Assembly: GCA_024404115.1 (NCBI GenBank)
Contig: JAKSQM010000003.1
Coordinates: 62,001 to 126,000 of the forward strand
Origin: Clostridia bacterium
GTDB lineage: Bacteria; Bacillota; Clostridia; Oscillospirales; Acutalibacteraceae
DNA length: 64,000 nt
Direction: 5' to 3'
In this document: positions 54,793 to 64,000 of the stretch, piece by piece
Numbering within the stretch: the first letter of the stretch is position 1
How the letters are laid out: the number at the start of each line of letters is the position of its first letter
The notes under the pieces: model-generated
Seen by the model: only the letters and a program-made list of their open reading frames with translations
Database searches by the model: none
Told to the model about the DNA's origin: nothing
Position numbers and translations under genes: made by a program

Positions 54793-55926
54793 ATGGAAGC
54801 CTATCTTGATAACAGTGCAACCACGCCTGTTTGCCCTGAGGCAATAAAAGCAATAAACCAAACCTTAACAGAATGTTGGGGTAATCCATCGTCCCTCCAT
54901 TATGGCGGAATAGAAGCGGCAGATATGGTTGGCGAGGCAAGGCACGCAATCGCCAGAAAGCTTTCCTGTGCAGATGATGAAATCGTTTTCACCTCTGGCG
55001 GAACAGAAGCCAACAACCTTGCAGTTTTCGGTGCCGCCAATGCCTACAGAGCTAAAGGGACAAGAATCATTCTTTCGTCAGTTGAGCATCCAAGTGTAAA
55101 CGAGCCTGCAAGGCAGCTTGAAATGCAGGGGTATGATGTTGTCCGTATCAGATGTGATAAATTCGGCAGACTTGACGAGCGTCAGCTTATGGCAAGCATC
55201 ACACCCTCAACAGCACTTGTGAGCATTATGGCTGTTAATAACGAGGTCGGCACAATTCAGCCTGTTGAAAAAATAAGAATGGCTGTTAAAAAAGCAAATT
55301 CAAGAGCGCTTATTCATTGTGATGCTGTTCAGGCTTTTGGCAAAATGCCGTTGAAGCCATATTCAATGGGCGTTGACCTTATGACAATCAGCTCACATAA
55401 AATCCACGGACCAAAAGGTGTCGGTGCTCTGTTTATTAAAAAAGGAACAAGAATCGTTTCAAGAACATTTGGCGGAGGGCAGGAGCACGGCATAAGACCA
55501 GGCACTGAACCTGTTCCTGCAATTGCAGGCTTCGGTGCGGCGGCAGCGGCTTTACCCGATATAAATTATCAGTTAAAAAAGACAGCGGAGCTTCGTGATT
55601 ATCTTTTGTTCCGTTTAAGGGAGCTTGACGGAGTTGTTATCAATTCCCCGGAGGATGCACTTCCCTATGTTACCAACATTTCTGTTCTGGGCTTCCCCTC
55701 AGAGGTTTTGCTGAATTTCCTTTCAGAAATGAATATTTATGTTTCGGGCGGCTCGGCTTGCTCTAAAGGACACAAAAGCAGAGTACTTGCCTCAATGAAT
55801 CTTGACACACAGCGCATTAACAGTGCATTGAGAATCAGCATTTCAAGATACACAACAAAGGCTGAAATTGATTACCTTATTGAGGGAATTGCTTCAGCGC
55901 AGAAATCAATAATGAGAAGATTATAA
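54793..55926 (+). CDS. Cysteine desulfurase (NifS/IscS-like)
   Basis: The 377 residues begin YLDNSATTPVCPEA. PLP-binding lysine lies in TISSHKIHGPKG and the active Cys in GGSACSKGHKSR. The short active-site loop suits NifS/IscS-type group I enzymes. Position before thiI suggests it hands sulfur to ThiI for 4-thiouridine in tRNA, as NifZ does in Bacillus. GGAGGG lies 11 bases before the ATG. Confidence 0.93.
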   Translation: MEAYLDNSATTPVCPEAIKAINQTLTECWGNPSSLHYGGIEAADMVGEARHAIARKLSCADDEIVFTSGGTEANNLAVFGAANAYRAKGTRIILSSVEHPSVNEPARQLEMQGYDVVRIRCDKFGRLDERQLMASITPSTALVSIMAVNNEVGTIQPVEKIRMAVKKANSRALIHCDAVQAFGKMPLKPYSMGVDLMTISSHKIHGPKGVGALFIKKGTRIVSRTFGGGQEHGIRPGTEPVPAIAGFGAAAAALPDINYQLKKTAELRDYLLFRLRELDGVVINSPEDALPYVTNISVLGFPSEVLLNFLSEMNIYVSGGSACSKGHKSRVLASMNLDTQRINSALRISISRYTTKAEIDYLIEGIASAQKSIMRRL

Positions 55927-55946
55927 TTAGCTGAATGGAGTATAAA

Positions 55947-57125
55947 ATGAAGGAAATAATTCTTATTAAAAACGGTGAGCTTGCTCTTAAAGGTCTTAAC
56001 CGCCGCACGTTTGAAGATATATTAGTTAAAAATATGCGTCATCGTTTAAGAGGTCTTGGCAAATTCAAGTTCACACCGGCTCAGTCAACAATAATGGTTG
56101 AGCCGGAAAATGAAGATGCTGACCTTGACGAAGCTGAAAGCAGACTTTTAAAGGTGTTCGGCATTGCCGCCCTTTCAAGAGCCGCCGCTGTTGAAAAGGA
56201 TATGGATGTTATCCTTGCCAGCGCAGGGGATTACCTTTGCGATCAGCTTATGAGCGCAGAAACATTTAAGGTAGAGGCTAAGAGAGCGGACAAGCATTTC
56301 CCCTTTAAATCTCCTGAAATCTGCGCAGAGGTTGGCGGCAAAATCCTTGAGCAGTTCCCTCACCTCAGGGTTGATGTTCATAACCCCGACATTGTTGTTA
56401 TGGTTGAGGTTCGTGATTATTACACCTACATTCACGGTAATCAGATAAAGGGCGCAGGCGGAATGCCCGTTGGCTCAGCAGGCAGAGCGGCACTTCTTGT
56501 TTCTGGCGGAATCGACAGCCCCGTTGCAGGCTGGATGATGGCAAAACGAGGACTTAACCTTGTTGGTGTTCACTTTGCTTCACCACCATATACAAGCCCC
56601 CGTGCAGAGATGAAAGTTCACACCCTTTGCAAAAAAGTGGCTCAGTATTGCGGTCATATCCCGCTTTATGTTGTTCCCTTTACAAGAATACAGGAAGAAA
56701 TTAAAGAAAAATGCCCCGAAGACCTTTTCACCCTTGTTATGAGAAGATTTATGATGCGCTGCGCTGAAAAGCTTGCTTTAAAAGAGGAATGTGGCGCACT
56801 TATCACAGGCGAAAGCGTTGGACAGGTAGCAAGTCAGACAATGCAGGCAATCGCTTGCACAGATGCAGTGCCCAATATGCCCGTTTTCAGACCGCTTATC
56901 GGTATGGACAAGGACGAGGTTATTGCAATTTCAAGAAAGATAGATACCTTTGAAACATCAATTCTCCCTTATGAGGATTGCTGCACAGTGTTCACCCCCA
57001 AGCACCCAAGAACAAAGCCGAAGCTTTATATGCTTGAAGAGGCTGAGCAGGCACTTGATATTGATGCCCTTGTTCAGGATGCTCTTGATAACACAAAATT
57101 TATTATGATAGATAATTTCAGGTGA
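55947..57125 (+). CDS. thiI: tRNA 4-thiouridine synthase ThiI
   Basis: The ATG at 55947 follows GGAG by six bases (an ATG at 55935 overlaps that site), giving 392 residues. Domains: ferredoxin-like and THUMP (to about 165), then a PP-loop ATPase with SGGIDSPVAGWMMAKRG. No rhodanese domain is present, as usual in Firmicutes, so sulfur must come directly from the desulfurase. Confidence 0.94.
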   Translation: MKEIILIKNGELALKGLNRRTFEDILVKNMRHRLRGLGKFKFTPAQSTIMVEPENEDADLDEAESRLLKVFGIAALSRAAAVEKDMDVILASAGDYLCDQLMSAETFKVEAKRADKHFPFKSPEICAEVGGKILEQFPHLRVDVHNPDIVVMVEVRDYYTYIHGNQIKGAGGMPVGSAGRAALLVSGGIDSPVAGWMMAKRGLNLVGVHFASPPYTSPRAEMKVHTLCKKVAQYCGHIPLYVVPFTRIQEEIKEKCPEDLFTLVMRRFMMRCAEKLALKEECGALITGESVGQVASQTMQAIACTDAVPNMPVFRPLIGMDKDEVIAISRKIDTFETSILPYEDCCTVFTPKHPRTKPKLYMLEEAEQALDIDALVQDALDNTKFIMIDNFR

Positions 57126-58384
57126 GAATTTTGGCAACTTGCGAAATCATCAGTGTTGGCACTGAATTGCTTTTAGGCGATATTCTTAATACAGACGCTC
57201 AGTTTTTATCAACCGAGCTTGCAAAAATGGGCATAGGTGTTGTGTATCAGACAACTGTTGGCGATAACCCCGAAAGGCTTAAAAAAGCTCTTTCAATTGC
57301 CGCAGAGAGAAGCGATATTATCATCACCTCTGGCGGCTTAGGTCCCACGCCCGACGACCTTACAAAAGAAATCTGCTGTGAATTTTTCGACAAAAAGTGC
57401 TTTCTTCACGAAGAAAGTCTTGATAAAATGAAACAGTATTTTGCAAATAAAAATATAGAAATGCCCGAAAGCAATGTGAAGCAGGCAATGCTCCCAGAGG
57501 GCTGCACAGTGTTCCCCAATAATAACGGCACTGCCCCAGGCTGTGCTATGGAAAAGGACGGCAAGCATATTCTTGTTCTCCCTGGCCCTCCAAGAGAACT
57601 GACAGCAATGTATTACGAAAGCGCAGTGCCTTACCTTTCACAATTTTCAGAAAAAACAATTGTTTCTCATCAGATACGTACATTCGGTATCGGCGAAAGT
57701 GCCCTTGCAGAAAAAGTTAAAAAATATCTTGACGGTGAAAATCCCACCGTTGCACCGTATGCAAAAGACGGCGAGGCTCTTTTAAGAGTAACAGCTATGG
57801 CAGATGATGAAGAATCTGCCGAGGAGCTTATGAAGCCGATTATTGAAAAGATTTTTGCAGAAATCGGCGAGTTTGTTTATGGCATTGATATGCCAAATAT
57901 CGAAACAGCCGTTGTAAATTCACTTAAACAAAAAGGAATGGTTGTCGCTACGGCAGAGTCCTGCACAGGCGGACTTGTTTCACAGCGAATCACCTCAGTT
58001 GCAGGCTCATCAGAGGTTTTTCAGTGCGGCATCGTTTCTTATGCAAACAATATAAAGCATCAGATTCTTGGTGTTAATGAGGATGACCTTAAAAATTACG
58101 GAGCCGTAAGCGAGCAGGTTGCTTCGCAGATGGCGCAGGGTGTGCTTCGTTTAAGCGGAGCAGATGTTGCCGTCAGCGTTACAGGCATCGCAGGCCCTGG
58201 CAGTGATGGAACTAACAAGCCTGTTGGCTTGAGTTATATAGGTCTTGCCGCAAAGGACGGAACTTTGTTCGTCAAAAAGCTCTTAACAGGGCATAGCGGT
58301 AAGAATTGCAGAGAATACAACAGATATGTCAATGCTTCAAATGCGTTGAATCTTGTAAGACTTTACCTTGACGGAAAGATATAA
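57122..58384 (+). CDS. cinA: CinA family nicotinamide-nucleotide amidase/damage-inducible protein
   Basis: The 420 residues start with GTG at 57122, overlapping the thiI stop; a TTG at 57131, six bases after AGGTG, would fit the family N-terminus (CEIISVGTELLLGDI) equally well. The N-terminal MoCF-like domain has TSGGLGPTPDDLT; the C-terminal CinA domain has ATAESCTGGLVSQRIT and GIAGPGSDGTNKPVG. The C-domain deamidates nicotinamide mononucleotide. Confidence 0.93.
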   Translation: MRILATCEIISVGTELLLGDILNTDAQFLSTELAKMGIGVVYQTTVGDNPERLKKALSIAAERSDIIITSGGLGPTPDDLTKEICCEFFDKKCFLHEESLDKMKQYFANKNIEMPESNVKQAMLPEGCTVFPNNNGTAPGCAMEKDGKHILVLPGPPRELTAMYYESAVPYLSQFSEKTIVSHQIRTFGIGESALAEKVKKYLDGENPTVAPYAKDGEALLRVTAMADDEESAEELMKPIIEKIFAEIGEFVYGIDMPNIETAVVNSLKQKGMVVATAESCTGGLVSQRITSVAGSSEVFQCGIVSYANNIKHQILGVNEDDLKNYGAVSEQVASQMAQGVLRLSGADVAVSVTGIAGPGSDGTNKPVGLSYIGLAAKDGTLFVKKLLTGHSGKNCREYNRYVNASNALNLVRLYLDGKI

Positions 58385-58411: not shown

Positions 58412-59863
58412 ATGGACGACAAGTTTAATCCAGAGAAAGACTACAGAAGAAACAGTGTGGATTTATCCAGCTTTGACCTGACACCTTTTAAGGAGCTTTT
58501 TGAGCAGGAGGACGCTGAAAAAGAAGCCGCTGAAAAAGCACGCCTTGAAAAATTAGAAAAGGAAAAGGCAGATAAAGAGGCTATGCTCCGTGCACAGAAA
58601 GAGGCTGAGCTTCGTGAAAAGCAGAAAAAAGAGCGTGAAGCAGCCGAGCGTGAGGCTATCCTTAAAGCCCGCCGTGAAAGAGAAGAGGCTCGCCGTGCCG
58701 CAGAGAAAGAAAAGGCAGCAGCCGAAGCCGCAAGAAGAGCAGAGGAAGCCGCAAAGCATAAGGAGAAAATGGAAGGCAAACAGCCCGAAAAGGCAGCGGA
58801 TAACCAGAGCCTTGATGATTTTTCATCAATCCTTAACCTTAAAGGACTTAAAGGCGATAGTGAAAACAGCATTGAGCCTGTTGAGCTTACAGAGGAATTT
58901 TTCAATTATAAGCCTCCCATGCCCTCACCCAAAAGTGCGTTCCACTCTGCTATCTGCGCAATTCTTATAATTGCAATCCTTGCCGCATCTGGCCTTGCAG
59001 GCTATACATATTTCTTTGCTGGCAGAGATAAAAAAGAGCTTTCAAATACTGAGTATATCGGCACTTCACCAGATTATCAGCCATATAAAAAGCTTGAGGT
59101 TCACTATCCTGCAACAAAGTTCCCGCAGTTTATCAGCGATGACATGAAAGCTGTTTATACTCAGAATAATAACTCTGTTGGCTGGCTTTCAATTGACGAT
59201 ACTCCAATTGATTTCCCAATTGTTCAGTATAAAGACAATGCCCGTTACCTCAACGCCTATAACTTCTATGATAAGGGCGCAAGATACGGCTCACCGTTTA
59301 TGGATTTCAGATGCAACCCCACAGCATTGAGCAAAAACACAGTTATCTATGCTCATCATATGAATAACAAGCTGTTCTTTGGCTCACTTGATAAATACGA
59401 AAATCCCGATTTCTATAAGAATCATCCTTATATCAATTTCCAGACTCTTAGCGGAAATTGCACTTTCAAGGTTTATGCCGCATTCTATGCCACAACAGAA
59501 ACAAATGTTGATGCAGGCTTTGTATTTGACTACTATAATCCCAACATGAATAACGAAAACTTCAAGGGATATATCGAACTTCTTAACCAGTATGCAATTT
59601 ACACAACAGATGCAGGACTTGATTCATCAGATAAGATTATCACACTTTCAACCTGCGCTCATGTTTATGATGACCTGCGCAAGGGCGGAGTTGACACAAG
59701 ATTTGTTGTTGTTGGCAGACTTCTCAGAAATGGCGAAAAAGCATCAAAGGGCAAAGAAAGCGTAACAGAGCATAATGATTATCGCAGACCTCAGCTTTGG
59801 TATGATGTAAATCAGAAGAGCAATCCTTACACTGCTTCCCGTAAGTGGAAGGCAATAATGTAA
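58412..59863 (+). CDS. Class B sortase with long cytoplasmic coiled coil
   Basis: The 483 residues divide into a charged Glu/Ala/Lys/Arg coiled coil (about 32-125), a linker, one membrane helix (178-203) and a class B sortase domain (235-440). Catalytic residues are His315/316 (YAHHMN), Cys415 (LSTCAH) and Arg430 (DTRFVVVGR). The topology places the coiled coil in the cytoplasm and the sortase outside. Usual class B sortases have only a few cytoplasmic residues, so this is odd. AGGAG precedes the ATG. No LPXTG/NPXTN-like substrate is visible nearby. Confidence 0.9.
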   Translation: MDDKFNPEKDYRRNSVDLSSFDLTPFKELFEQEDAEKEAAEKARLEKLEKEKADKEAMLRAQKEAELREKQKKEREAAEREAILKARREREEARRAAEKEKAAAEAARRAEEAAKHKEKMEGKQPEKAADNQSLDDFSSILNLKGLKGDSENSIEPVELTEEFFNYKPPMPSPKSAFHSAICAILIIAILAASGLAGYTYFFAGRDKKELSNTEYIGTSPDYQPYKKLEVHYPATKFPQFISDDMKAVYTQNNNSVGWLSIDDTPIDFPIVQYKDNARYLNAYNFYDKGARYGSPFMDFRCNPTALSKNTVIYAHHMNNKLFFGSLDKYENPDFYKNHPYINFQTLSGNCTFKVYAAFYATTETNVDAGFVFDYYNPNMNNENFKGYIELLNQYAIYTTDAGLDSSDKIITLSTCAHVYDDLRKGGVDTRFVVVGRLLRNGEKASKGKESVTEHNDYRRPQLWYDVNQKSNPYTASRKWKAIM

Positions 59864-59894
59864 CAGACCGAAAAATTCAGAAGGGGGAAGATGG

Positions 59895-61061
59895 ATGGCA
59901 AACAGTTATGAAAACACAAAAATGCCCGAAAAGCCGGAAGTTAAAATAAAACCAGATGCTATTCCCGTTGATGATAAGGGTCAGCCTTTACCCGATCCCA
60001 CAGAAAACCTCAGTAATTATATTGCACCCAAGGGTGTGGAGGAGCTTAAAAAGTCTTACTCCGAAATTGAGGTTGACGAAGATGTAAGAGAAACAATGGA
60101 GCCGCCTCAGAGGGCAAACTTTTTGCGCAAGCATAAGCCAGGCAAAAGGGGATACGATTATTACGGCACACCCTCTGGCAGTATTCCAAACGATAATAAC
60201 GGGCTTAAACCGTCGCCTTTGACAGAGCTTTTTTCAGCGGCAGAGGCACTTGAACCAGAATTTGATGTTAACGATATAAGAGATCACGTGCTTGCAAAGG
60301 AGCCGATACCTGGCAGTGAGTTTAAGGTTGTTGAAACACCGAAGCTTGACCGCACAGATATTAAAGACGATTTAAAGGATAAGTCAGATAAAAAAGAACT
60401 TCAGCGCACCGAGGTTAAAAAAGACCCCAATGCACCGAAATTCCTTGAGCTTTATAAAGAAAGCACCAACACAAAGGTTATTTATCAGTATGATGAGGCT
60501 GAAATGGAGGACGCACCCTCAAAGCCTGCCACTGATACAGAGGAGTTTTTTGCAGAACATTCCCGTGTTGCAAAGGCTAAAAAGAAAAACAGCAAAAAAG
60601 AAGAGAAAAAAGCACTTAAAGCCGCTCTCAAAGCAGAGAAACGCAGGGCAAAGGAGCTCCGCAAGGCTGCTAAAAAGAACGGTAAGAATAATGCTGTTCC
60701 TCTGACCGACCCTAAAGAGATTATGGAGCTTCAGCCTGCAAATGCCCATAAGGCAGAGAATATTTCTGCTGAAGAGATTGCAAAGCGTGCCGCTCTTGAA
60801 GCGGAGAAAAAGCTGATGGCAGAGAAAAAGCAGTTTATCAGCCAGCTAAAAAAAGAAAGACTGGCGGCAGAAAAGGCTGCCGAAGATGCCCGACTTGCAA
60901 GAGAAGAAACTGAAAAGCTTAAAGCCGAGCTTGAAAAGATGAAAGAAGCAGCCGAAAAGGCGCTCGCCCAGAAGCAGGAGGCTGAAGAGGCATTCAGACT
61001 TGCAAGAAAAGAAAATAAGCGTCTTGACGAAGAAATAAAAAGGCAAAAGAAAGAAAATTAA
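59895..61061 (+). CDS. Soluble coiled-coil protein between two sortases, unknown function
   Basis: This 388-residue protein has no signal peptide or membrane helix. The first 220 residues are Pro/Asp/Lys-rich and look disordered. Residues 225-260 are Lys-rich, and 285-385 form a long Glu/Ala/Lys coiled coil (ELEKMKEAAEKALAQKQEAE) resembling the cytoplasmic arm of the upstream sortase. This suggests the two may pair through their coils. No known family is recognised. GGGGG lies about seven bases before the ATG. Confidence 0.65.
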   Translation: MANSYENTKMPEKPEVKIKPDAIPVDDKGQPLPDPTENLSNYIAPKGVEELKKSYSEIEVDEDVRETMEPPQRANFLRKHKPGKRGYDYYGTPSGSIPNDNNGLKPSPLTELFSAAEALEPEFDVNDIRDHVLAKEPIPGSEFKVVETPKLDRTDIKDDLKDKSDKKELQRTEVKKDPNAPKFLELYKESTNTKVIYQYDEAEMEDAPSKPATDTEEFFAEHSRVAKAKKKNSKKEEKKALKAALKAEKRRAKELRKAAKKNGKNNAVPLTDPKEIMELQPANAHKAENISAEEIAKRAALEAEKKLMAEKKQFISQLKKERLAAEKAAEDARLAREETEKLKAELEKMKEAAEKALAQKQEAEEAFRLARKENKRLDEEIKRQKKEN

Positions 61062-61070
61062 GTGATAGCA

Positions 61071-61934
61071 ATGAATGAAAACGAACTTGAAGAAGAATAT
61101 GAATATGAGTACGAAGAAAGTCCAATAGTGGCTTTTTTCAAAAAGCTTGCAATAAGGCTCGCCATTATTGGTGTGGCTGTCAGCATTATTTATATTCTTT
61201 ATGAGGTGGTGTGGGTTCCAAGCCACTTTAAAAAGCTCTCTGAAATGATTGATGATTATAAATATTCAGATGTGCAGGATCAGTATCTTTTGCTTAAAAA
61301 AGAGTTCCCCGATTTTTCGGGCAAATTCACAGTTGCAGGTCTTGAAATGGATTTCCCCGTGGTGCAGAGAAATGACAACAAATTTTATCTCACCCACACA
61401 ATTGACGGCAAGATAGACAAGCACGGTGCACTTTTTGCAGATTGCAGAAACAACCTTAGAAAGCTCAATACCAACACAGTGCTTTACGGTCATAATATGA
61501 AAGACGGCACCCAGTTTGGTATGCTCAATGTTTACAAAACCGCCAGCGGATACAAGGCAGGACCTGTTGTAACTTTCAATACCTTATACAACGATTATAA
61601 ATGGAAAGTTTTCGCCTCGTTCCTCATAAACACAAGACCTGAGGATGACGGCGGCTATGTTTTCAACTACACTAACCCCGAATTTTCAAGCAAAACAGAG
61701 TTTGAGAATTTTTACAGAGAGGTTATGCAGCGTTCTTATATAATCACAGGTGTTGATGTTGAGTACGGAGATAAAATTCTCACAATGTCAACCTGTAGCG
61801 TTCTTTATGATGATTCAAGGCTTGTTGTTATGGCTCGCCTTGTAAGGGACGGCGAAAGTGAAGAAGTTGACCTTTCTGCCGCTCAGGATAATGTAAACCA
61901 GAGATTCCCCAAGGCATTCAACAAAGAAAGATAA
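61071..61934 (+). CDS. Class B sortase, second
   Basis: The ATG at 61071 is preferred over the GTG at 61062 and gives 287 residues. An acidic N-terminus (NELEEEYEYEYEE), one membrane helix (26-48) and a class B sortase domain follow, with His141 (YGHNM), Cys242 (MSTCSV) and Arg250 (DSRLVVMARL). It is distinct from the first sortase in length and in its short cytoplasmic part. Confidence 0.9.
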   Translation: MNENELEEEYEYEYEESPIVAFFKKLAIRLAIIGVAVSIIYILYEVVWVPSHFKKLSEMIDDYKYSDVQDQYLLLKKEFPDFSGKFTVAGLEMDFPVVQRNDNKFYLTHTIDGKIDKHGALFADCRNNLRKLNTNTVLYGHNMKDGTQFGMLNVYKTASGYKAGPVVTFNTLYNDYKWKVFASFLINTRPEDDGGYVFNYTNPEFSSKTEFENFYREVMQRSYIITGVDVEYGDKILTMSTCSVLYDDSRLVVMARLVRDGESEEVDLSAAQDNVNQRFPKAFNKER

Positions 61935-61952
61935 TTTAAAGGAATTTTTATT

Positions 61953-63038
61953 ATGGAAATCAAACTTTTTTCTTTTATTAAAGGCGAAGAAACTGAATAT
62001 CAGCAGTGCAAGGATGCAATTGCAGATTGCGTGAGCATTTTCACAGCAAAAGAGGAGGAGTTTTATAACTTCACTTCACCTAAAAAACTGTTGATTTCAG
62101 GTGCGCAGGCATTGAGAACAGCAGATGCTGTCATTTTTGCAGTTCAGCTTTCTGCATATAACTCAATCAAAAAAACACTCTGCGACGCATTTGAAATTGA
62201 AGCGGAGCGAAACAGTGAACTTATTGAAAAACTTCTGCCCCTTTTAAAAGAGAAAAAAATATCAAAAACCGCTTATGAAAACAACTGCTTTTTCCCAAAA
62301 GAAGCAGAGATTTTCCCTGTGTCTGATTTCAGATGCTGCGGCTTTGGCATAACAGAGGGCGCAAAGAGCATTATTCTTATGCCCCTTGATGATACTAAAA
62401 CAATCGAGGTCGTTTACGGCTCACTTTATAGCTTTATTGCAGGTATGGCAGGGTACGAAAATCCTGCGGATATTTCCATGCTCAAATGTGCAGTTCTTGC
62501 AACAAAGCTTTCAGCAATCCTTAAAAAAGGCAAATCACGCCTTGCTTTTGCGAATCTCGGCTGTGTTCCACTTATTGAAGAGAGCCTTTACCATGCAGAC
62601 AGAGAAAATGCAACAATGTTTGTGGCAGATAAGCCCGAAGAGCGTTTGCCCTCACAGACTATACAGGATTACATAGTTACAGTTGCGCAGAAAACAAGAC
62701 TTGATACAGAGTCAGATTTTGCCTGCGCCGTTTCAAGTGCATTTGCCAGCAACACAGACGGCTCAACATTTATCTACACCGCTGTTGCAGACGAAAAAGA
62801 TACTTTTATTAAAAAGCTCTATGCCAATGATGGCGAGGAGCCGAAGCTTCTCTATTATGCCGCCGTTGAAGATGCTTTTCTTTCAGCTCTTAAAAAGGTT
62901 GACGCCAGCCTTAAACAGAAAAGAAAAGAAGGCAGAAGAGCCGATAAATTCTTCCGCCAGAAAATTGCACTTATTACCGCCGCCGCAATTGCAGGTGCAA
63001 CAGGTATCTGCGCCACAGTGGCAATGCTACTTCAATAA
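61953..63038 (+). CDS. Probable tail-anchored membrane protein, unknown function
   Basis: The 361 residues are soluble-looking up to about 335, then a basic stretch (KQKRKEGRRADKFFRQK) leads into one C-terminal helix (IALITAAAIAGATGICATVAML), typical of a tail anchor with a cytoplasmic body. I recognise no family. Co-transcribed with the sortase genes (18 bp gap), it may regulate or scaffold them. AAAGGA precedes the ATG. Confidence 0.6.
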   Translation: MEIKLFSFIKGEETEYQQCKDAIADCVSIFTAKEEEFYNFTSPKKLLISGAQALRTADAVIFAVQLSAYNSIKKTLCDAFEIEAERNSELIEKLLPLLKEKKISKTAYENNCFFPKEAEIFPVSDFRCCGFGITEGAKSIILMPLDDTKTIEVVYGSLYSFIAGMAGYENPADISMLKCAVLATKLSAILKKGKSRLAFANLGCVPLIEESLYHADRENATMFVADKPEERLPSQTIQDYIVTVAQKTRLDTESDFACAVSSAFASNTDGSTFIYTAVADEKDTFIKKLYANDGEEPKLLYYAAVEDAFLSALKKVDASLKQKRKEGRRADKFFRQKIALITAAAIAGATGICATVAMLLQ

Positions 63039-63767: not shown

Positions 63768-64000
63768 GTGAAAAAATTCATTTCAATCTTACTTTGTATG
63801 ATTTTAGCTGTGTCAGCCTGCGCTTTCACAGCTTTTGCTTCTTTAGGCTCTGCATCTTTTGATGAGGTGCAGGCAGAAAAAGCCGAAAAAAATCCTGAAA
63901 ACGAAGAGAAAGAAGAAGCATTTGTTCCCGACAAAACCGTCAAGGTTTGCGCCAATAAAGGCAATTGGGAGAATGCACCCGAAAATTCACTTGAAGCAAT
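63768..64000 (+). CDS. Secreted GDPD-like protein, 5' part only
   Basis: A GTG start with GAGGT nine bases upstream opens a frame still open at the window end. A lipoprotein-like or cleavable signal (FISILLCMILAVSACAFTAFA) is followed by a Glu/Lys-rich linker. Then comes CANKGNWENAPENSLEA, which resembles the start of glycerophosphodiester phosphodiesterases (AHRG ... APENT). Here NKG stands where HRG is expected, so the first catalytic His seems replaced. Most of the domain is outside the window. Confidence 0.6.
   Translation, partial: MKKFISILLCMILAVSACAFTAFASLGSASFDEVQAEKAEKNPENEEKEEAFVPDKTVKVCANKGNWENAPENSLEA

Follow-up and report, generated by a model that had tools for sequence, protein, structure and literature searches.

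What are two class B sortases doing directly behind cinA? The usual view of sortases is of surface enzymes that stand alone, and what CinA, a cytoplasmic enzyme of wide occurrence, does for the cell remains a matter of debate. The question arises in a Clostridia bacterium, in a stretch of 64,000 nucleotides (positions 62,001 to 126,000 of contig JAKSQM010000003.1, assembly GCA_024404115.1; the whole stretch is called the window, and coordinates in the form start..end are those of the window), where four tightly packed genes, here named SRT1, COIL, SRT2 and TA, have iscS, thiI and cinA upstream and face lexA. All are on the + strand, and the gaps along cinA/SRT1/COIL/SRT2/TA measure only 27, 31, 0 and 18 nucleotides. 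Other loci, genomes and contigs carry our numbers with the prefixes L, G and C, positions within a locus following its number.

We read this block, cinA included, as a transmembrane module in split form, with CinA on its cytoplasmic side coupled to class B sortases on the outer face, because related genera fuse CinA, a transmembrane segment and a sortase (and, in some, SpoIID) in one open reading frame (ORF); we put the probability of this reading at about one half. Class B sortases are usually type II membrane proteins. If those described here are too, then the membrane anchor of TA together with the fusions would put CinA in the cytoplasm and the sortase on the outer side.

CinA–sortase fusions in related genera

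Single ORFs encoding CinA, a transmembrane segment and a sortase follow iscS-thiI in other genera of the same family, at L119, L121, L122, L123, L125, L127 and L128 and again at L164-L168, L171, L172 and L174-L176. Outside the family, fusions were found at L161, L162 and L163 (the last with the CinA C domain only), which are all three of the long CinA frames among the matches listed. The MoCF_biosynth, CinA_KH, CinA and Sortase models all scored above the Pfam cut-off in L161, L162, L165 and L166, and L165 gave PDB matches for both its CinA and its sortase half. At four further loci (L126, L169, L170 and L173) the ORF runs from CinA through the transmembrane segment and sortase into SpoIID, the transmembrane segment of L173 lying below our hydrophobicity threshold. 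Among 120 family genomes searched, 33 of the 108 that hold CinA have a CinA frame of at least 650 residues, a figure based on frame length in a sample not picked for fusion, with not every one of the 33 read; L111-L130 and L161-L180 were picked for TA or long CinA matches, so that the fusion rate among them is biased. The initial annotation of the window had suggested that a sortase is held to a partner in the cytoplasm, and in the relatives the tether proves to be covalent and the partner to be CinA; a link through pairing of the SRT1 coil with COIL found no support.

The fused sortases are mostly intact. Of the 19 CinA-fused sortases without SpoIID (L174, cut by a contig end, is among them; L162 is outside these counts), 17 have the complete His-Cys-Arg triad, as do 61 of 69 stand-alone sortases; among the 13 that share an ORF with SpoIID not one does. 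The triad columns were taken from one automatic alignment. A tree of 102 sequences, in which the outgroup sortase (L060) was entered twice, groups the dead SpoIID-fused sortases, and with them L167 6112-7047, in a single clade (0.996), and the CinA-fused and block sortases in another (0.958). SRT1 and SRT2 are separate genus clades (0.999 each), and SRT1 is closest to two sortases with a short arm and one with a long arm (0.951).

Nine loci (L121, L122, L123, L125, L128, L165, L166, L171 and L176) have, beside the CinA–sortase ORF, a partner ORF made of a transmembrane segment, a dead sortase and SpoIID, and a TA-like, that is CinA-like, region is detectable in three of these nine (L122, L125 and L171). 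A separate sortase gene lies between iscS and thiI in L126, L169 and L173, three of the four loci with a CinA–dead sortase–SpoIID ORF; the L170 stretch starts beyond that place. At L162 (3904-9025), in another family, a Pfam Big_9 (Ig) domain stands behind the sortase of the CinA–transmembrane–sortase ORF, and a separate SpoIID gene in canonical order follows.

Among the papers listed in searches of the open-access literature, several of which contain both the names CinA and sortase, no title or abstract opening describes a CinA–sortase(–SpoIID) module; it may be described elsewhere.

TA, a degenerate relative of CinA

The window cinA (57122..58384, +) is a normal full-length member of the NMN amidase / ADP-ribose pyrophosphatase family known from CinA (PDB 4ct8, 6mr3; PMC4246079), with its catalytic motifs present. 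The last gene of the block, TA (61953..63038, +; 361 residues), is different: it is colinear with the N and C domains of CinA, but shows no similarity to the KH domain, carries none of the motifs and is anchored in the membrane.

In a profile-profile comparison using 27 TA sequences, TA matched CinA with a probability of 98.7 and an E value of 2e-16 (a one-target comparison), colinearly over both domains. Taken by domain, N against N gave 97.7 and C against C 95.9, versus 21.8 or less for the controls (cross-domain, KH, reversed CinA, IscS, ThiI and both sortases), the highest of which fell in the membrane-segment region of both proteins. For the CinA KH domain the probability was at most 2.6 per cent in alignments holding the whole of TA and 9.3 with its C part alone. 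The TA profile also recovers the CinA of its own genome (E = 6.8e-9) and, at E of 0.001 or less, has hits in 65 of 120 family genomes, with CinA itself among those hits. The four CinA motifs (AESCTGG, TGIAGP, GGLGPTxDD and LPGPPxE) are all missing from each of the 27 TA sequences, so TA, judged by its sequence, is a degenerate CinA paralogue and not a CinA enzyme. It has conserved residues of its own.

The protein had been annotated as tail-anchored, and it does carry a single hydrophobic segment, at residues 338-356, with no transmembrane segment at the N-terminus; its degenerate CinA nature had been missed, as had the likely place of cinA itself in the unit. Some TA-type proteins of related genera bear an outside domain after the same transmembrane place. 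TA was also considered as a sortase substrate, and rejected for lack of a sorting motif before its transmembrane segment.

The two sortases

SRT1 (58412..59863, +) is a type II membrane protein of 483 residues with its transmembrane segment at residues 179-197; SRT2 (61062..61934, +) has 290 residues from a GTG at 61062 (an ATG at 61071 is the other possible start) and its transmembrane segment at residues 29-47. It was confirmed that these are two different class B sortases, as first annotated, and that the four ORFs of the block lie where that annotation placed them. Both exceed the Pfam Sortase cut-off of 26.6 (42.1 bits for SRT1, 46.9 for SRT2), their closest solved structures in a PDB search are class B sortases, and the catalytic triads are intact (His315/Cys415/Arg430 in SRT1, His144/Cys245/Arg253 in SRT2). 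NCBIfam TIGR03064 is the best model for both, although their scores of 132.3 and 134.9 bits stay below its cut-off of 153.75.

The two thus share with SrtB-type class B sortases (TIGR03064; PDB 2oqw, 1ng5, 5jcv) the catalytic domain, the His-Cys-Arg triad and the single N-terminal membrane anchor. They differ from them in a long or split cytoplasmic arm, in being adjacent paralogues, in their linkage (fusion in relatives) to CinA, and in scoring below the TIGR03064 cut-off. A third sortase of the same genome is encoded on a different contig (C1; L060 8004-10278), directly 5' of the gene for a LytR-CpsA-Psr protein whose N-terminal tail is rich in Ser and His. A search of the open-access literature for class B sortase with Ruminococcaceae, and for SpoIID with circular permutation (described below), returned nothing.

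Conservation of the block

The order cinA-SRT1-COIL-SRT2-TA is kept across the genus, and iscS-thiI-cinA-sortase recurs in the family. We compared 17 genus loci including the window, leaving out of the count L036, which starts inside the block and has TA at its contig end. All 17 have CinA, SRT2 and TA; SRT1 occurs in 16 (not L042) and COIL in 15 (not L046 or L049), the COILs of L040, L043 and L044 being recognised by an NTNT[RK]-type motif. All four block genes stand together behind cinA in 14 of the 17 loci, so that the expectation that they would stay together was borne out by gene neighbourhood. Apart from its own genome, all 17 congeneric genomes searched contain TA.

Beyond TA the genus varies. 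Several congeners without lexA at that place encode a secreted protein after TA, in L038 (11395-13712) a dockerin protein, and a second secreted protein is often present further on.

Cytoplasmic arms

The cytoplasmic part of SRT1 contains a helix rich in Glu, Lys, Arg and Ala (residues 32-125, 58505..58786, +; by composition the charged segment covers residues 20-137). It had been described as a long Glu/Ala/Lys coil; the charged segment is real, but its statistics are those of a single alpha-helix and not of heptads. A hydrophobic heptad pattern is absent, 893 of 1000 shuffles doing as well, and absent also from three relatives (thus in 4 of 4 tested), and opposite charges at i,i+4 number 29, in excess of the mean of 16.0 (z = 4.2), as in single alpha-helices. 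COIL (59895..61061, +) is a soluble protein with a conserved N-terminal region, in which a KVIY-type motif, shared with the cytoplasmic arms of some long-arm sortases from other genera, stands at residue 194 (60474..60485, +), and a C-terminal coiled-coil-like segment (residues 288-388; 60756..61058, +). Here the earlier description of a coil at the end of the soluble protein agrees with the heptad pattern found (3 of 1000 shuffles as good), which one of three relatives tested also has (L035); the i,i+4 charge excess is weaker (z = 2.8). Within the genus loci the SRT1 helix was seen only in the subclade of the window, and long coils in both SRT1 and COIL only in the window, L034, L035 and L037 of the 17, perhaps through a single event.

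With moderate confidence we take COIL to be a detached cytoplasmic arm of SRT2, on the grounds of its position, a short motif and the juxtamembrane sequence, all chosen after inspection. With mechanical starts, 10 of 15 loci show an overlap of the COIL and SRT2 ORFs (L043 and L044 included). Many long-arm sortases have an arm ending in an FLPWKGDSxxExIRK-like sequence just before the transmembrane segment; COIL ends in an RR-x-x-x-W-x-x-KKK-like sequence in six genus members (L038, L039, L042, L045, L047 and L050), and SRT2 starts with a KKSxxxxxRK-like one in many. The motif [KR][VI][IVL][YF] occurs in 12 of 12 labelled COILs (which, as homologues, make one observation) and in 9 of 21 long arms, for which 500 shuffles gave a mean of 0.56 and a maximum of 4. 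COIL and the long arms were also tried as degenerate CinA and rejected, no match being found.

SpoIID domains

The SpoIID/LytB peptidoglycan domain (PF08486) is shared by the partner proteins of related genera and in the window genome lies apart from the block. Of 15 SpoIID ORFs that lack a sortase half, 13 are circularly permuted relative to the canonical SpoIID of the same genome, appearing as two swapped pieces. Six of the permuted domains are fused to TA (L051, L053, L055, L057, L112 and L120) and seven are separate (L052, L059, L115, L130, L178, L179 and L180); the two colinear exceptions are L111, fused to TA, and L162, separate. SpoIID domains joined to a dead sortase are colinear with the canonical protein in 12 of 13 cases, L169 giving one short piece only.

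A fused SpoIID was also sought in the genus of the window and rejected: the full-length permuted SpoIID there is a separate dockerin protein, present in 4 of 18 genomes including the window's own. All four proteins have dockerin, and Pfam, applied to the window genome's own (L184), adds an SH3 domain. The four genomes are those with the coils; G005 (L036) is without this protein, and its coil genes lie beyond the contig end. These secreted dockerin–SH3–permuted SpoIID proteins (L184 1498-2853 on contig C1 of the window genome, and L181-L183) join a peptidoglycan-type domain to a cellulosome docking module.

A candidate substrate

We scanned 1504 mechanical ORFs of the window and of other loci (overlapping loci counted repeatedly) for sorting signals. 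The window has none, in agreement with the initial annotation, and two sorting-signal-like tails appeared on other contigs, in L063 and in a doubtful short ORF of L002. The former is our candidate substrate (L063 503-1162, contig C13 of the window genome): a secreted protein encoded after a recN-like gene, with an NPKTGD signal, a transmembrane segment and a Lys-rich tail. Including its own, 13 of 18 genus genomes hold a match to it. Homologues in four congeners carry NPSTGD, NPGTGD, NPSTGD or NPPTGD; G003 and G006 match over the tail only, with NPDTGD; and the weak matches in L216, L217, L218, L220, L221 and L222 are without such a tail. The curated sorting-signal models TIGR03063 and PF00746 gave nothing above cut-off.

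Other candidates were discarded by eye: a match of the srtB_target model on C4 looks like an AMP-binding-enzyme-like ORF, and two cohesin-like proteins with a C-terminal transmembrane segment have no P-x-T-G motif.

A possible mechanism

Thermus thermophilus CinA forms an asymmetric dimer (PMC4246079). By analogy the tail-anchored pseudo-CinA, TA, might dimerise with active CinA and so hold it at the membrane. The sortase arms (the SRT1 helix, and COIL acting for SRT2) could then bind this CinA–TA platform, and the state of CinA, or the pyridine nucleotides that it binds (nicotinamide mononucleotide, NMN, or ADP-ribose), would place or gate the sortases. Sortases so placed or gated would attach NPxTG-type surface proteins, and the SpoIID-type enzyme, fused or nearby in relatives, may open the peptidoglycan at the attachment site. 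In such a scheme the state of CinA would control surface anchoring.

A more general form of the scheme can be offered tentatively. Sensing in the cytoplasm would fall to CinA and its dead twin, and the outer half would consist of sortases, dead sortases and (permuted) SpoIID, active and dead copies being paired; turnover of nicotinamide adenine dinucleotide (NAD), for example through NMN released by DNA ligase, would control surface attachment, and the window would have the parts as separate genes. The locus and the fusions suggest a link between metabolism in the cell interior and the building of the surface. CinA–sortase proteins with active and dead copies adjacent would offer a direct, testable link from NAD metabolism to surface assembly in gut Clostridia, and with it a way of learning what CinA does and how the position or activity of a sortase may be set from inside the cell.

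Weighing the module against its alternatives

Several observations weigh against a CinA–sortase module at this locus. For TA, the Pfam CinA model hits only 1 of 23 sequences (E = 0.0069, below cut-off), neither TA nor COIL otherwise having a Pfam match, and a PDB search with the TA profile finds CinA (6mr3) at E = 0.67, behind five other entries and at noise level. The CinA-fused sortase of L172 is dead, its triad reading NDK. SRT2 adjoins mostly long-arm sortases in the tree (at a weakly supported node), and profile comparison finds no similarity between COIL and the long arms of other sortases, so that homology of COIL to them was rejected. SpoIID is absent from the window block, and no fused SpoIID was found in its genus. 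Any of the three sortases of the genome might handle the NPKTGD candidate. Finally, only 6 of 20 further family stretches with an unfused CinA have a sortase, and 1 of 20 has TA.

The alternative that survives best is that CinA is a mere dimerising scaffold, clustering sortases at the membrane with its chemistry irrelevant. The retention of TA in the genus despite the loss of its CinA motifs would fit this; nonetheless 13 of 21 full-length fused CinAs keep all four motifs by strict patterns, and we regard the explanation as possible but not probable.

Less likely is that an ordinary sortase operon lies by chance near a housekeeping cinA, the fusions being neutral read-throughs and TA a decayed cinA duplicate. 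CinA is indeed common (found in 213 of the 245 genomes sampled from the order) and often follows iscS-thiI outside the family too, and, as just noted, 14 of the 20 family stretches lack a sortase; outside the family a sortase occurs in 1 of 20 unfused-CinA stretches (L253). The linkage is therefore frequent in the family and not universal. The family stretches came from the upper rows of the family CinA listing, with frames under 600 residues (G069, G030 and G152 were passed over), and the outside ones are the first 20 rows of the order-sample listing, which stops at about E 1e-49; ORFs were called mechanically, longest first with overlaps removed, which hid some cinA genes (14 of the 20 and 16 of the 20 stretches still show one). 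Against a chance neighbourhood stand the CinA frames long enough for a fusion in 33 of 108 family genomes, the presence of TA, with its own conserved residues, in every congener searched, and the linkage in other families (fused in L161, L162 and L163, adjacent in L253). At L253 (177-3636) cinA, a class B sortase and SpoIID are three adjacent separate genes, possibly the ancestral arrangement.

Least credible is the proposal of the initial annotation that the SRT1 coil pairs with COIL and so controls sortase 1 from inside, which the joint presence of long coils in four loci and the heptad pattern of COIL 288-388 would favour, but which is opposed by an SRT1 helix without heptads in four of four members and with strong i,i+4 charge pairing, by COIL without SRT1 in L042 and SRT1 without COIL in L046 and L049, and by the resemblance of COIL to an SRT2 arm.

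Neighbouring genes and source genome

The probable operon begins with an iscS-type cysteine desulfurase gene (54793..55926, +), followed by thiI (55935..57125, +), the upstream neighbour of cinA. After lexA, from window position 63768 (L061 1769-3034), comes a protein of the GDPD family that has membrane segments at both termini, encoded also in L034 and L035 of the same subclade; by eye it has no P-x-T-G-like motif and was rejected as a sortase substrate. The source genome (G000) measures 2.43 Mb and is 84 per cent complete. The 17 named related records are metagenome-assembled Clostridia, Ruminococcaceae and Oscillospiraceae, many of them labelled as from ruminant gut.

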